In this document: positions 10,590 to 25,475 of the stretch, piece by piece
Numbering within the stretch: the first letter of the stretch is position 1
Layout: each line of letters begins with the position of its first letter
Source: Vicinamibacteria bacterium
GTDB taxonomy: Bacteria; Acidobacteriota; Vicinamibacteria; Marinacidobacterales; SMYC01
Direction of reading: 5' to 3'
Assembly (NCBI GenBank): GCA_035620555.1
Contig: DASPGQ010000389.1
Location: 1 to 37,396 of the forward strand
Length of the DNA stretch: 37,396 nucleotides
Position numbers and translations under genes: made by a program
Notes under the pieces: generated by a model
What the model was told of the DNA's origin: nothing
The model's input: the letters and a program-made list of their open reading frames with translations, nothing else
Databases searched by the model: none

Positions 10590-10598
10590 TGCTATGAT
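10590..10598 (+). promoter_or_regulatory. Possible extended -10 element for the ankyrin gene
   Basis: TGC-TATGAT (hexamer 10593-10598) matches an extended -10 consensus. It overlaps the ATG pair at 10594/10597, which would place the transcription start near 10605, next to an in-frame GTG at 10606. No convincing -35 is seen. If it is real, the gene may be leaderless and start at 10606. Confidence 0.35.
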
Positions 10599-11532
10599 GG
10601 GTCCCGTGCTCGAAACGTTGGTGATCCTCCTGGCGTTCGGCACCGGTCAGCAGGCCGAGCCAGAAAAGCGGGACGATGCGGGGCGAACGCCCCTCATGCT
10701 CGCCGTCATGGAGGACGATGTCGAGACGGCGGAACGTCTCATCGCCGCGGGGGCTGACGTCGACGCGGCAGACGCCTACGGGCGGACCGCCCTCATCCTC
10801 GCGGCACAGAGCTCTCTCGAGTCGGTCCGGCGGCTGATCGCTGCGGGAGCGGACATCTCACGCCGAGATGATCTCGGGACCAGTGCTCTCAGCGTCGCCC
10901 TCGAAGCCGGCCGCACGGACATCGCTTCAGAGCTCCGGGCCGCGGGGGCGATCGAGAGCCTCGAAGAGCGACTCGATGAGGCCGTCCGTGCGGGGAATCG
11001 AGCCGAAGTCTCGAGACTCATCGAAGCGGGTGCAGACGTCGACGCACTCGACACCTCTTCTTATCAGACACCGCTCATGACGGCGATCGAAAGGCGCGAC
11101 ATCGAGATGGTATTGGTCCTCCTCGACGCCGGTGCCGATCCCACCCGCGAGGGTACGGGGATCGAAACGACGGGCGAGAACGCACTTACGTTCGCTGCCC
11201 GGCAGGGAAGCACCTGGGTCTTTCTGAGGCTTCTCCAGGCCGGGGCACAACGTGACGTCATCGAGCGCGCCGCCATCGCCGGGTGCCAGCATCGCGACGT
11301 TCTTCGGGCAGCGCTCGGCGCTGGAGTCAACGTGAACTTGAGAGGACCGAGGGGGTTCACGCTGCTCACCTGTGCCGCGTCCGCGGGTGCCACGGAGACG
11401 GTATCATTTCTCATCGACTCCGGTGCCGATGTCAGTGTGCGGTCGAACGACGGCCGGACGGCACTCGATTGGGCCGAGCTCGGAGGCCATTCCGAGGCGG
11501 CGGCACGACTCCGTCAAGCCCTCGCGCGCTGA
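10594..11532 (+). CDS. Exported ankyrin-repeat protein
   Basis: A 312-residue protein made of tandem ankyrin repeats with typical GRTPLMLAV..ERLIAAGADVDAAD and GRTALILAAQ..LIAAGAD units. About seven repeats are visible, some degenerate, from residue 28 to the end. The first ~20 residues (ETLVILLAFGTG) are hydrophobic and resemble a short signal peptide, suggesting a periplasmic protein. Ankyrin repeats bind proteins; the partner cannot be deduced. It stands alone between divergent rimO and convergent asnS. No Shine-Dalgarno precedes the ATG pair at 10594/10597; an in-frame GTG at 10606 is an alternative start. Confidence 0.88.
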   Translation: MMGPVLETLVILLAFGTGQQAEPEKRDDAGRTPLMLAVMEDDVETAERLIAAGADVDAADAYGRTALILAAQSSLESVRRLIAAGADISRRDDLGTSALSVALEAGRTDIASELRAAGAIESLEERLDEAVRAGNRAEVSRLIEAGADVDALDTSSYQTPLMTAIERRDIEMVLVLLDAGADPTREGTGIETTGENALTFAARQGSTWVFLRLLQAGAQRDVIERAAIAGCQHRDVLRAALGAGVNVNLRGPRGFTLLTCAASAGATETVSFLIDSGADVSVRSNDGRTALDWAELGGHSEAAARLRQALAR

Positions 11533-19572: not shown

Positions 19573-21879
19573 ATGCGTATTCTCGATCGTTACGTCCTGC
19601 GAGAAGTCACCCCGAGCTTCCTCCTGGGAATTGGAGTCTTCACCTTCGTCCTCATGCTGAACGAGATCTTGCGTTTCGCTCAGAGCCTCGTCACGCAGTC
19701 GGCGACTTTCGGCGAGACCCTGGGCATATTCCTGAACCTGCTGCCCAGCGTTCTCTGCCTCACCATTCCGATGGGATTTCTGCTCGGCGTGCTGATCGCC
19801 CTCGGACGACTCGCGGCCGACAGCGAGATCGTCGCCATGCGCGCGAGCGGCGTGAGTCTCTACCGACTTCTCGTCCCCATCACTCTCGCCGCCGCCTCGG
19901 CATGGCTCTTGACTTCTCATCTCATCATCGCGGTTCTTCCCGACTCCAACCAGCGAGTGCGCCAACTCATTTTTCAGGTGATGACGTCTCAGGCGGGAAC
20001 GGAGATTCGCCCCCGGGTCTTCTACGACAGGTTGTTTCCCAACTACATGTTTCTCGCCCTCGATACACCGACCAGTTCGGACGCCTGGGAGAACGTGATC
20101 GTGGCCGACCTCTCTCGGCCCGAGACTCCTCGGGTCACCTTCGCCGAACGCGGACGGCTCCTCGTCGACTCGGTGAAGAGAACGGTGACATTCTATCTGG
20201 AGGACTCCGAGGTCCATCAGGTCTCGCAGAATCAACCCGATGACTACCAGCGCCAGGTTTCGCGCGAGATCTGGCTGCCGCTTCCAACCCAGACTTTCTT
20301 CCCCCCCGAGGACATCGACGTTCCTCGCGGTGCGCGCGAGCTCGGCCTGGCCGAGCTCCGGGCCTCTTACGCGGAAACGAAGCTTCCCATCTACCTGACG
20401 GAGATCCACAAGAAGTTCTCCATTCCGTTCGCATGTTTCGTCTTCGGCGTGATGGGACTCGCGCTGGGAATCCGAAATCGTAGGGATGGACGCTCTTGGG
20501 GGTTCGTCGTAAGTCTGGCGATTATCTTCTTCTACTACGTCCTCATCGACATCGGCGAGAGTATGGCCAGACATGGGCGTCTCTCTCCCCTTCTCGGTAT
20601 GTGGACCGCCAACTTCGTGATGGGCCTGGGTGCGGTGTTCCTTCTGGTACGCGCGGCACGCGAGACCGGAGGATCCCACGGGCGCCTGGCCGCCGCGGCT
20701 TCGCTCGTCCGCCGCCTCGCTCGCCGGCGGCCGAGGTCCGAGCGGCCGCCCTCACCGCCGGTGGTCGTCGTCCGAATACCCCGGATCGACATTCGTTTCC
20801 CCAACACACTCGACCGTTACGTCGCGCGCGAGTTCGCGCGCTATTTCGCCTTGATTCTGGCGGCACTCGTCGTCGTTTACGTACTCGGCCTCCTCATCGA
20901 CGTCATCGCCGATGCGTTCGAGAACAACGTCATGGGCAAGCTCGTATTCCAGTATCTCTTCTTCGCCCAGCCCCAGATACTGTTTCACATGCTGCCGCTG
21001 GCGACACTCATGGCCACTCTCGTGTGCTTCGCGATCCTGACCAAGACCAGCGAGTTGACCGCGGCGAAAGCCGGCGGCGTCAGTCTGTACCGACTCGCCA
21101 TTCCCGTTGTTCTGTCCGGCGCCCTCGTCAGCGGTGCATGTTTCGCCATACAGGAGTACGTGCTCCCCTTCGCCAACCGCCGCGTTTCCGAGATCTTGGA
21201 CGAGATCAAACGGCGCCCGGTCGGCTCGCACAACGTCCTCGATCGCCGGTGGATGATGGGTCGAGCCCAGCACATCTACAATTACGCCTACTACGACGCA
21301 TCGCGGCAGATTTTCAACGGACTGGCCATCTATCGATTCGCCAACGAGCCGTTCGGTATTCGCGAGCGATACTATGCGCACCAGGCAATCTGGGAATCGG
21401 AGGCCGGCGGATGGAGCCTACAACGCGGCTGGCGGCGCGACTTCACCGCCGGAGGTAGAATCGAACGCTTCGACGAGCTCCTCGTTCGCAACATGGAGCC
21501 TCCCTCGTACTTCGTAAAGGAGGAGAAGCGGTCGGATCAGATGACCTACGTCGAGCTGACGCGTTACATCGAGGATCTGAAACGAGCTGGATTCGACGTC
21601 GTGCCCCTCGAAGTCGCCCGGCAGGCGAAATTCTCGTTCCCACTCGCGGCCATGGTAACGGTTCTGATCGGCATACCGTTCTCGTTCACACCGGGCAAGA
21701 AGGGAGCACTCTACGGAATTGGCATCGCCATCACGATCGGGCTGTCGTACTACGTGACGACTCGGGTCTTCGCCTTCATGGGCGATACCGCCATGCTCCC
21801 GTCGACGATTGCCGCCTGGTCACCCAACTTGCTGTTCGGCGTGGCCGCGCTCTACGGATTGTTCAACGTGAGGACTTGA
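19573..21879 (+). CDS. Fused LptF-LptG lipopolysaccharide export permease
   Basis: In most diderms LptF and LptG are two ~360-residue inner-membrane subunits that, with the LptB2 ATPase, extract LPS and feed the LptC-A-D bridge. This 768-residue protein holds two full permease domains. The first (1 to about 365) starts RILDRYVLREVTPSFLLGIGVFTFVLMLNE; the second begins near 411 with NTLDRYVAREFARYF. Each has the conserved IPMGFLLGVLIALGRLAADSEIVAMRASGVSLYR-type block, a periplasmic jellyroll stretch, and C-terminal helices (KKFSIPFACFVFGVMGLALG; QAKFSFPLAAMVTVLIGIPF). An Arg/Pro-rich linker (about 366-410) joins them. There is no stop or frameshift, so it is a genuine single ORF here. Which half is F and which G is not determined. 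Confidence 0.92.
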   Translation: MRILDRYVLREVTPSFLLGIGVFTFVLMLNEILRFAQSLVTQSATFGETLGIFLNLLPSVLCLTIPMGFLLGVLIALGRLAADSEIVAMRASGVSLYRLLVPITLAAASAWLLTSHLIIAVLPDSNQRVRQLIFQVMTSQAGTEIRPRVFYDRLFPNYMFLALDTPTSSDAWENVIVADLSRPETPRVTFAERGRLLVDSVKRTVTFYLEDSEVHQVSQNQPDDYQRQVSREIWLPLPTQTFFPPEDIDVPRGARELGLAELRASYAETKLPIYLTEIHKKFSIPFACFVFGVMGLALGIRNRRDGRSWGFVVSLAIIFFYYVLIDIGESMARHGRLSPLLGMWTANFVMGLGAVFLLVRAARETGGSHGRLAAAASLVRRLARRRPRSERPPSPPVVVVRIPRIDIRFPNTLDRYVAREFARYFALILAALVVVYVLGLLIDVIADAFENNVMGKLVFQYLFFAQPQILFHMLPLATLMATLVCFAILTKTSELTAAKAGGVSLYRLAIPVVLSGALVSGACFAIQEYVLPFANRRVSEILDEIKRRPVGSHNVLDRRWMMGRAQHIYNYAYYDASRQIFNGLAIYRFANEPFGIRERYYAHQAIWESEAGGWSLQRGWRRDFTAGGRIERFDELLVRNMEPPSYFVKEEKRSDQMTYVELTRYIEDLKRAGFDVVPLEVARQAKFSFPLAAMVTVLIGIPFSFTPGKKGALYGIGIAITIGLSYYVTTRVFAFMGDTAMLPSTIAAWSPNLLFGVAALYGLFNVRT

Positions 21880-23239: not shown

Positions 23240-23375
23240 AAACGCATACTTCTATCACAACGCCACGGGGAGATCAACGCTACTTGAATCACCGGACGGT
23301 ATACGATTGAATCCAAAGGTGCCCAGGACGAACGGACCCGGAGGGCTCGCGATTTCCCCCAGAGCCTCTCGGGGA

Positions 23376-25475
23376 ATGGGAGCCCGCGTCCCGCGGCACG
23401 ATTCCGATCCCATCGCGCCACCGGTCACCAAGACCCGGCTGCGGATGCAGTTGGAAGCCGCAGTGCTCTTTGCCGTCGCGACGCTCATCCTTACCTATCC
23501 ACTGGCGACGCAGCCGAGCAGCCTTTCCCGCTTCGACAACGGAGACGCGCGGTTGAACGCCTGGGCCATATCGTGGGTATCTCACCAGCTCACACACGAT
23601 CCCCTCCGGCTGTTCGAAGCGAATACGTTCTACCCCCTTCCTCATTCGCTGGCCTTTTCCGAGCACTTGACGCTGCATGGCCTGCTCGCCTTTCCGCTCC
23701 TCACGCTCAGCGACGACCTGACGCTGACCACCAACCTCCTGCTCCTCGGCTACATCTGGTTCTCCGCCTTTGCCATGTACTGGCTCGCGAAAACGCTCAC
23801 TGGGAGTCATGCCGCAGCGCTGCTCGCGGGATTATTCTTCTCGTTCGCACCTTTTCGCTTCAACCGACTTCCTCATATCCAGATGCAGCTCTACGCCTTC
23901 CTTCCTCTGTTGCTCTTGAGCCTTCATCGATTTCTTCTCACGAGACGACGGATATTTCTTGTCGGGCTGAGCGCTTTTTTCGTGCTCCAAGCTCTGGCAG
24001 GAACCTATCTGGGTGCCATCGCCGCCGTCGCACTCTCGGTCGGGCTCGTGACTCTCACTCCTTTCGCCCGCCTCGAAGGACGCGATGTCCTCGCAATTGT
24101 GCTCTCCCTCGGAGCCGCCGCCGTCCTGCTCGTTCCGTTCGCGGTCCCTTACCTATGGGTCAATCGGGAACTGGGCGTCGAGTGGGATCTCGAGGGGATG
24201 GCGTCGCTTTCCGCCACCGCCTGGTCCTACGCAGCGTCCGGGGCTCGTCTCTACCGTCCGGCATTGGAGGTCCTCCTCCGGGGGCGCGAAGTCACCGACT
24301 ATCTCTTTCCCGGATTTACTGTTCTCGGTCTCGGCGTCGTTGGCGCCTGGGATCTCGCCCGGCGCCCGGGACGGCGCTCGATCTTGCTGTGCTACACCAC
24401 AATCCTTGTGGTCGGCGTTGCCGTGTCGCTGGGTCCTCGTCTTCCGCTCTATCCCTTCCTCTACGAGCATGTGGTTTTCTTCCGGGGTCTCCGAGCACTC
24501 ACTCGATTCGGGCTCCTGCCTCTTTTCACGCTCACCGTCCTGTCGGGCTACGCCATCTCATGGCTGTTCGAGACAATGCATCGCCAACGCACCCGAAGGC
24601 TCGTGGCCGGGGGGATTGCTCTCTTCTTCGTCGCCGAGTCGGTGACGCTCCCCTATGACTTTCAGCCCCACGCCGACGAGCCTCCCGAGGTCTACCGTTG
24701 GCTCGCCGAAGCGGGACCCGGCCCGATCGCCGAGCTTCCCTTCAAGGTCATCGACACCAGGTACATGTTCTGGGCCCGACACCACGGTTTCCGATCCACC
24801 CTCAACGGCGACAGCGGCTTCATCCCGGTGTCCCACCAATGGATGAAGATCGCGCTGCAACGATTCCCTTCCTCGGATGCGATCGCCTTGCTGAGATCAC
24901 TCGATGTGAAGTACGTCGTACTCCACCTGCCCGCTTTCAGAAGACCCACTCTCCTCCGGATCCTGCGAACGCTGCCGGACCATCGAGATGCTCTCCTGCC
25001 GGTGCGTGATTTTGGAAAAGAGCTGGTGTTCGAGGTCGTTTCCGATGGAGAGACAACCTCGGTGCAGGCGACGACGGATTGGCAGACGCTCGTCGTCATC
25101 GAGCCTCATCGAGGGCGTGGAGAAGAAGGTCTGCTCAGCTTTGACATCGAGCTTCCCCGAACGTCCCGGCTACGAGCGATTCGCCTGCACTATGGCTCGG
25201 CGCCACGAGTGCCGGTCGAGCGCGTCGAAGTTCTCGGAGATTCCGGTGGAAACGAGGGGCCCGAGACACGATTCGCGACGCCCCCGGACTGGCCCGCAGT
25301 GAGCGAGCTCGTGCTCGGGCTTCTACGAACACCGCAGGACGGTACCCAGACGGTGGTCGTCGAAGACGTGTGGGAGCACCGCCTCAGACTCCGCCTTCAT
25401 GGGCTCGACGGAGAGCAACCCGAGCTCACGACCATCGAGCTTCTCGGGAGCTTTTCGAGCTCAGCGGGTCTTTGA
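23376..25475 (+). CDS. Multi-spanning membrane protein, GT-C glycosyltransferase-like
   Basis: A 699-residue protein with about ten or more hydrophobic helices between residues 25 and 420, then a soluble ~270-residue C-terminal domain rich in beta-like sequence. The first external loop holds SRFDNGDARLNAWAISW, an acidic motif where GT-C enzymes that use polyprenyl-linked sugars keep their catalytic Asp. GT-C activity is therefore inferred, not shown. The frame is open from a TTG at 23307; ATG 23376 or ATG 23445 (just before the first helix) are the plausible starts, none with a clear Shine-Dalgarno. It stands alone, divergent from metK and convergent with the acetyltransferase gene. It could modify the cell envelope, or be a non-enzymatic relative. 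Confidence 0.78.
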   Translation: MGARVPRHDSDPIAPPVTKTRLRMQLEAAVLFAVATLILTYPLATQPSSLSRFDNGDARLNAWAISWVSHQLTHDPLRLFEANTFYPLPHSLAFSEHLTLHGLLAFPLLTLSDDLTLTTNLLLLGYIWFSAFAMYWLAKTLTGSHAAALLAGLFFSFAPFRFNRLPHIQMQLYAFLPLLLLSLHRFLLTRRRIFLVGLSAFFVLQALAGTYLGAIAAVALSVGLVTLTPFARLEGRDVLAIVLSLGAAAVLLVPFAVPYLWVNRELGVEWDLEGMASLSATAWSYAASGARLYRPALEVLLRGREVTDYLFPGFTVLGLGVVGAWDLARRPGRRSILLCYTTILVVGVAVSLGPRLPLYPFLYEHVVFFRGLRALTRFGLLPLFTLTVLSGYAISWLFETMHRQRTRRLVAGGIALFFVAESVTLPYDFQPHADEPPEVYRWLAEAGPGPIAELPFKVIDTRYMFWARHHGFRSTLNGDSGFIPVSHQWMKIALQRFPSSDAIALLRSLDVKYVVLHLPAFRRPTLLRILRTLPDHRDALLPVRDFGKELVFEVVSDGETTSVQATTDWQTLVVIEPHRGRGEEGLLSFDIELPRTSRLRAIRLHYGSAPRVPVERVEVLGDSGGNEGPETRFATPPDWPAVSELVLGLLRTPQDGTQTVVVEDVWEHRLRLRLHGLDGEQPELTTIELLGSFSSSAGL

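Follow-up and report, generated by a model that had tools for sequence, protein, structure and literature searches.

A fused LptF-LptG permease as a phylum-level variant of the lipopolysaccharide transporter in Acidobacteriota

One reading frame for two permease halves

In E. coli, LptF and LptG are two separate polypeptides. In the window, by which we mean the whole 37,396-nucleotide stretch of a Vicinamibacteria contig analyzed here, both had been predicted to lie in a single gene at 19573-21879, and the question is whether this join is real, where it came from, and what it would mean for the transporter. One open frame runs from the ATG at 19573 to the stop at 21877-21879 with no internal stop in its 768 codons, and the window thus carries a fused variant instead of the two chains of E. 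coli (Table 1). The Pfam family PF03739 hits the protein in two stretches (whole-protein E 3.1e-148). The first half passes the NCBIfam equivalog model of LptF (321.6 bits against a cut-off of 230) and the second half passes that of LptG (336 bits against 240), which bears out the claim that both permease halves are complete. The second half has its own LDRYVAREF motif, as originally read, and LDRYVLREV in the first half matches it. No further PF03739 domain was found in the rest of the genome (7.0 Mb, 835 contigs, 97.85% complete).

The surroundings of lptFG are ordinary. It is flanked by smc upstream and metK downstream, both on the opposite strand, and the same stretch holds pnp, truB, infB, nusA, and rimP. 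Two other frames on the plus strand were observed: a 312-residue protein consisting almost wholly of ankyrin repeats among the housekeeping genes (10594-11532), and a 722-residue frame with a hydrophobic N-terminal half and no Pfam match (23307-25475).

Table 1. Features of the fused lptFG gene (positions in the window) and of LptC-LptA genes in relatives (positions in the named locus)
Feature	Position	Strand	Basis
lptFG fusion gene, 768 aa	19573..21879	+	single open frame; two PF03739 domains
LptF half, residues 3-359	19579..20649	+	TIGR04407 equivalog; solved LptF chains fit model residues 2-375
Linker, residues 360-411	20650..20805	+	composition; low pLDDT; translated, relaxed purifying selection
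LptG half, residues 412-768	20806..21876	+	TIGR04408 equivalog (412-763); solved LptG chains fit 409-767
LptF-half coupling helix, model residues 85-91, Glu85	19825..19845	+	model helix; Glu conservation
LptG-half coupling helix, model residues 494-500, Glu494	21052..21072	+	model helix; Glu conservation
GTG, residue 397	20761..20763	+	sole in-frame ATG/GTG/TTG between residues 356 and 425
LptC + LptA parts in one protein upstream of lptB	L168:4305-5723	-	
LptC + LptA parts in one protein upstream of lptB	L177:2440-4476	-	
LptC + LptA parts in one protein upstream of lptB	L172:1182-3479	+	
LptC + LptA parts in one protein upstream of lptB	L181:1903-3900	+	

The fold of the product was modeled with AlphaFold2 from an alignment of 124 rows (mean pLDDT 89.0, pTM 0.82). 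Each half is predicted to adopt the six-helix plus jellyroll fold, with six long helices, one jellyroll, and a short helix between the second and third long helices. Solved LptF chains superpose on the first half with Z up to 27.0 (8frn_F) and solved LptG chains on the second with Z up to 28.6 (6mjp_G), and unrelated proteins begin at Z 10.2 in the same comparison. The short helices hold the counterparts of two glutamates, LptF E84 and LptG E88, which are described in the E. coli work consulted in part (PMC5082905) as important for LptB binding and transport. The LptF position (Glu85) is Glu in 123 of the 124 aligned fusions and Gln in the remaining one, and the LptG position (Glu494) is Glu in 115 and Gln in nine. 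The nine glutamines contrast with the description of the LptG coupling-helix glutamate as strictly conserved in those parts of the E. coli work. Very probably, the complete permease of the lipopolysaccharide extractor LptB2FG is made from lptFG as a single chain.

Spread and origin of the fusion

A single reading frame in one genome could be produced by an assembly or sequencing error that hides a stop and a start between two genes, and the window does come from a fragmented draft of 835 contigs. The original prediction had itself named a hidden stop or frameshift, and absence of the fusion from close relatives, as grounds for doubt. The distribution was therefore read from match tables for 168 distinct Acidobacteriota genomes, obtained as two draws (60 and 119 genomes) sharing 11. 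Both halves are in one open frame in 161 of the 168, and in none are there two intact separate genes. The join recurs in 60-odd families and in single-contig assemblies (G138, G108, G032, and G160 among them), and the linker between the halves is in frame in three genomes of the same family, where it is translated (see below). Far from being absent in close relatives, the fusion is found throughout the phylum. The recurrence of the join refutes the error reading, to which we assign a negligible probability; the LptFG fusion is a phylum-level architectural variant of a well-known transporter.

The few genomes outside this count are accounted for individually. In the draw of relatives, 55 of the 60 genomes (the window's own included) have the LptF-to-LptG junction in one open frame; of the other five, G013 and G045 have no match, G039 has a weak match, G052 has a partial match, and G040 has pieces on two contigs. 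In the even draw over the phylum, limited to genomes at least 90% complete and again including the window's own, both domains are in one frame in 117 of 119. G086 has no match, and in G142 the frame is still open where the contig ends, shortly after the LptG half begins.

A search for similar loci gave at least 563 matches. The best 80 of these are nearly all from Acidobacteria (Vicinamibacteria, Terriglobia, Aminicenantes, Holophagales), in a sample biased to the same phylum. The closest among these 80, L080, is 73% identical over residues 1-768, and its genome (G168) matches at the same coordinates as the same-family genome G003. A few of the 80 are labeled Cyanobacteria, Acidimicrobiia, or Bifidobacterium, labels that look wrong; the genomes behind the Cyanobacteria- and Acidimicrobiia-labeled loci have match coordinates equal to those of the same-class genomes G042 and G046. 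Fusions beyond the phylum were also looked for in plasmid records, which were rejected as a source: 37 matched, and the two that covered at least 80% of the query both carry split genes, which are two annotated genes in Sphingomonas and two overlapping frames of 360 and 371 codons in Fusobacterium.

Additional copies were also observed. One acidobacterial contig carries two fused LptFG genes in tandem (L106:1683-3980 and L106:4001-6325), and extra LptFG copies or pieces are present in G073 (C134, C163) and G163 (C60, C53). In G108, which has a normal fusion elsewhere, a 330-residue frame with one weak LptF/LptG domain lies at C1:5110520-5111260.

The two halves are alike, with 89 of 316 aligned residues identical, as would be expected if they had arisen by a tandem duplication inside Acidobacteriota instead of by the joining of LptF to LptG. 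A maximum-likelihood tree was estimated from 25 fusions cut into halves, together with the split genes of E. coli, Acinetobacter, Sphingomonas, and Fusobacterium. A branch with 99/99 support separates every F-type sequence, fused or split, from every G-type sequence, so that F halves group with split LptF and G halves with split LptG. LptF and LptG had therefore already diverged when the two halves were joined, and a duplication within the phylum is exceedingly improbable. On the evidence of this tree the fusion is the joining of two old paralogues, in agreement with the original reading of a gene fusion as opposed to a duplication inside one domain. The fused F halves form one group (94/95), as do the fused G halves (100/99); the split sequences lie on long branches, and their finer placement is unsure. 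Because the fusion is nearly universal and each half forms one group, the data point to a single joining event before the Acidobacteriota radiated. The two genes of split operons share a short overlap (1 base in E. coli and in A. baumannii, 4 bases in Sphingomonas), so a small change at this point could have sufficed; the join probably came about when an lptF that overlapped lptG, or lay directly against it, lost its stop codon.

A survey relevant to how the outer membrane originated (PMC8871954) states, in its section 3.4, that Acidobacteria apparently have neither lptF nor lptG. That statement is contradicted by the fused genes found here. Hits were selected in the survey by E-value, length, and profile coverage, according to the parts of it consulted, and our guess is that a double-length LptFG was set aside at this step. 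A GAL08 paper names “LptF/LptG” in an acidobacterium and, in the parts consulted, makes no mention of a fusion. Among open-licence papers, no description of an LptF-LptG or LptC-LptA fusion was found, and the two-domain architecture may well be visible already in public databases.

The linker between the halves

The stretch between the two halves had been described as rich in Arg and Pro, and it does contain 13 Arg and 7 Pro, with 3 acidic residues, among 52 positions. Across the 124 aligned fusions, the linker is 30-90 residues long (median 56), and its net charge is positive in 123. Its predicted order is low, with AlphaFold2 pLDDT block means of 72, 77, 70, 54, and 49 over residues 361-410, or about 50 in the second half of the linker. 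To see how the linker evolves, the window was aligned in frame with three genomes of the same family (71.7-73.0% identical overall by local alignment). Insertions and deletions in the linker are of whole codons only, and changes at third positions are in excess. Among these four sequences, dN is 0.27-0.67 and dS is 0.80-1.91 in the linker, and dN is 0.10-0.20 and dS is 1.32-2.23 in the LptF and LptG halves. Given a dN below dS and gaps of whole codons, the linker is thus coding but loosely constrained; these rates indicate a translated segment under relaxed purifying selection, much like a tether.

One gene could still yield two proteins: LptG might be translated from its own start within the frame, or be released by proteolysis of the linker, and then pair with LptF as in the usual two-chain heterodimer. 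The linker is long and of low predicted order, hence open to cleavage, and a Met occurs somewhere in the stretch aligned to residues 395-416 in 25 of the 124 fusions; in the other 99, however, that stretch contains no Met, and the linker sequence varies too much to point to a common cleavage site. In this region the window has a single in-frame start codon, the GTG at residue 397, upstream of which no purine-rich ribosome-binding stretch was seen. A separate LptG start is not supported, as a lone GTG without an evident ribosome-binding site speaks against it, and we consider release of LptG from the chain quite unlikely.

At the end of the linker, VVVRIPRIDIRFPN (window 20755-20810, residues 395-413) was observed to be better conserved than the linker middle among the same-family genomes, and counterparts in several other genomes read VLRIPRV.. 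and VVRIPRL... This end may be a small structured element.

Taking LptFG as a single permease chain, we infer that the linker must be cytoplasmic, because the model has six helices per half and coupling helices facing LptB; its basic charge is in line with that location. The LptF half, with its six transmembrane helices and periplasmic beta-jellyroll, would end in the cytoplasm, and the flexible basic linker would run along the cytoplasmic face before entering the LptG half with its own six helices and jellyroll. The separate ATPase LptB would dock one copy per half, each through that half's coupling helix. Use of ATP would close the cavity between the halves, driving lipopolysaccharide upward into the jellyrolls and from there to LptC. 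Through the linker, F:G pairing would become obligatory, 1:1, and co-translational; the proposal that the fusion fixes the stoichiometry or alters the engagement of LptB and LptC may hold.

Partner genes and comparison with known systems

A functional extractor would need its partner genes. In the window's own genome, lptB (C618:3586-4296) scores 356.6 bits against an equivalog cut-off of 240, which no other of the 73 ABC ATPase hits exceeds; FR, read by eye in SIFRKLT, stands at the place of E. coli F90-R91. The gene order on this contig is an lptA-type gene, lptB, rpoN, hpf, rapZ, and EIIA, and lptB (C618) and lptFG (C389, the window) are thus apart. LptC (PF06835) was found at C409:224-673 (45.4 bits against a cut-off of 21). 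The classical LptD model, PF04453, has no match in this genome; a weak match to LptD_2 (PF19838) lies at C221, at 40.4 bits against a cut-off of 22.5 and over profile positions 6-187 of 464 only, from which the genome would appear to encode a divergent LptD-type barrel. With LptB, LptC/LptA, and LptD_2 all matched, the parts of an ordinary LptB2FG(C) extractor are present and are presumably active.

The divergent LptD might instead suggest that the fusion exports some other envelope glycolipid by the same mechanism, and Lpt-like systems have been proposed for bacteria without lipopolysaccharide, namely Borrelia, in the parts of PMC10353723 consulted. Against this, the two halves pass the LptF and LptG equivalog cut-offs, LptB passes its own, and LptC, LptA, and LptD_2 parts are in the genome; a different substrate is very unlikely, and lipopolysaccharide is retained here as the probable cargo.

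A second joint was found in the partner genes. The LptA-type gene beside lptB ends at the contig edge in the window's own genome; relatives have, upstream of lptB, a gene for a protein of 560-920 residues. In seven of nine such proteins, an LptC match lies on the N-terminal side and an LptA (LptD_N) match lies further on (four examples in Table 1); the exceptions are L174, which matches LptA alone, and L186, which matches LptA only and below the cut-off. On a profile built from eight such proteins, solved LptC chains align at positions 7-187 and LptA chains align at 182-246, 473-598, and 556-674. This profile matches 65 of 79 phylum genomes at least 95% complete and has no match in 14, as read from the table. 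The N- and C-terminal parts are in one open frame in 56 of the 79, five of which have one stop codon counted inside the matched stretch. Eight genomes show a partial match or differing frames, and the window's own genome has the parts on two contigs. The ends of these contigs, C409 and C618, overlap by 176 bases at 97% identity, which suggests one LptC-LptA gene broken by assembly. Pfam LptC was further searched for in 20 genomes, mainly those without a profile match: it is over the cut-off in five, in frames of 395 residues (the window's own genome, at a contig end) or 548-635 residues, and 14 of the 20 gave no hit. The LptC-LptA joint thus appears to be the usual, widespread arrangement in Acidobacteriota, though not shown everywhere.

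An LptA-LptB fusion was also considered in the Holophagaceae-like G138, which has an 863-residue frame, and was rejected since the sequence before LptB is not protein-like; this frame is not among the nine proteins counted above. The true gene upstream of lptB there is a separate 570-residue frame with an N-terminal hydrophobic helix (L185:1659-3371).

Taken together, the two joints could mean that an ancestral rebuilding in Acidobacteriota left the Lpt machine with fewer and larger chains. These would be LptB, a single LptFG permease, and a single LptC-LptA bridge protein, whose covalently linked jellyrolls would form the track on which lipopolysaccharide travels from the extractor in the direction of the outer membrane. 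We see the case for such a machine as evenly balanced. If it is correct, the bridge, unlike that of E. coli, could be neither extended nor taken apart through added LptA units; F:G homodimers would be impossible, and subunit-wise regulation of assembly would be lost. The fusion is accordingly of more interest together with the LptC-LptA joint than alone. The pairing of LptFG with an LptC-LptA chain is a natural experiment on whether exchangeable LptA units are needed in the periplasmic bridge, and the fused LptFG is a natural single-chain permease, handy for structural work and for assigning roles to the halves of LptB2FG. Soils harbor Acidobacteriota in large numbers, and little work has been done on how these bacteria build their envelope.

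Compared with the LptB2FG and LptB2FGC complexes of E. coli, Vibrio, Acinetobacter, and Pseudomonas, the fused system shares both complete subunits, six helices in each, the coupling-helix Glu, the periplasmic jellyroll, and a separate LptB, and the solved LptF and LptG chains superpose on its two halves. It differs in joining LptF to LptG through a basic linker of 30-90 residues, in having LptC and LptA usually on one chain, and in that lptFG and lptB are apart. The single-domain “LptF/LptG family permease” of Roseomonas and Bacteroides plasmid hits belongs to the same Pfam family (PF03739) but has one domain per chain and covers 37-42% of the query among the matches listed. Covalent joining of permease halves in one chain is a general principle of full-length or half-fused ABC exporters; the LptFG chain, in contrast, has no ATPase of its own, and LptB remains a separate protein.
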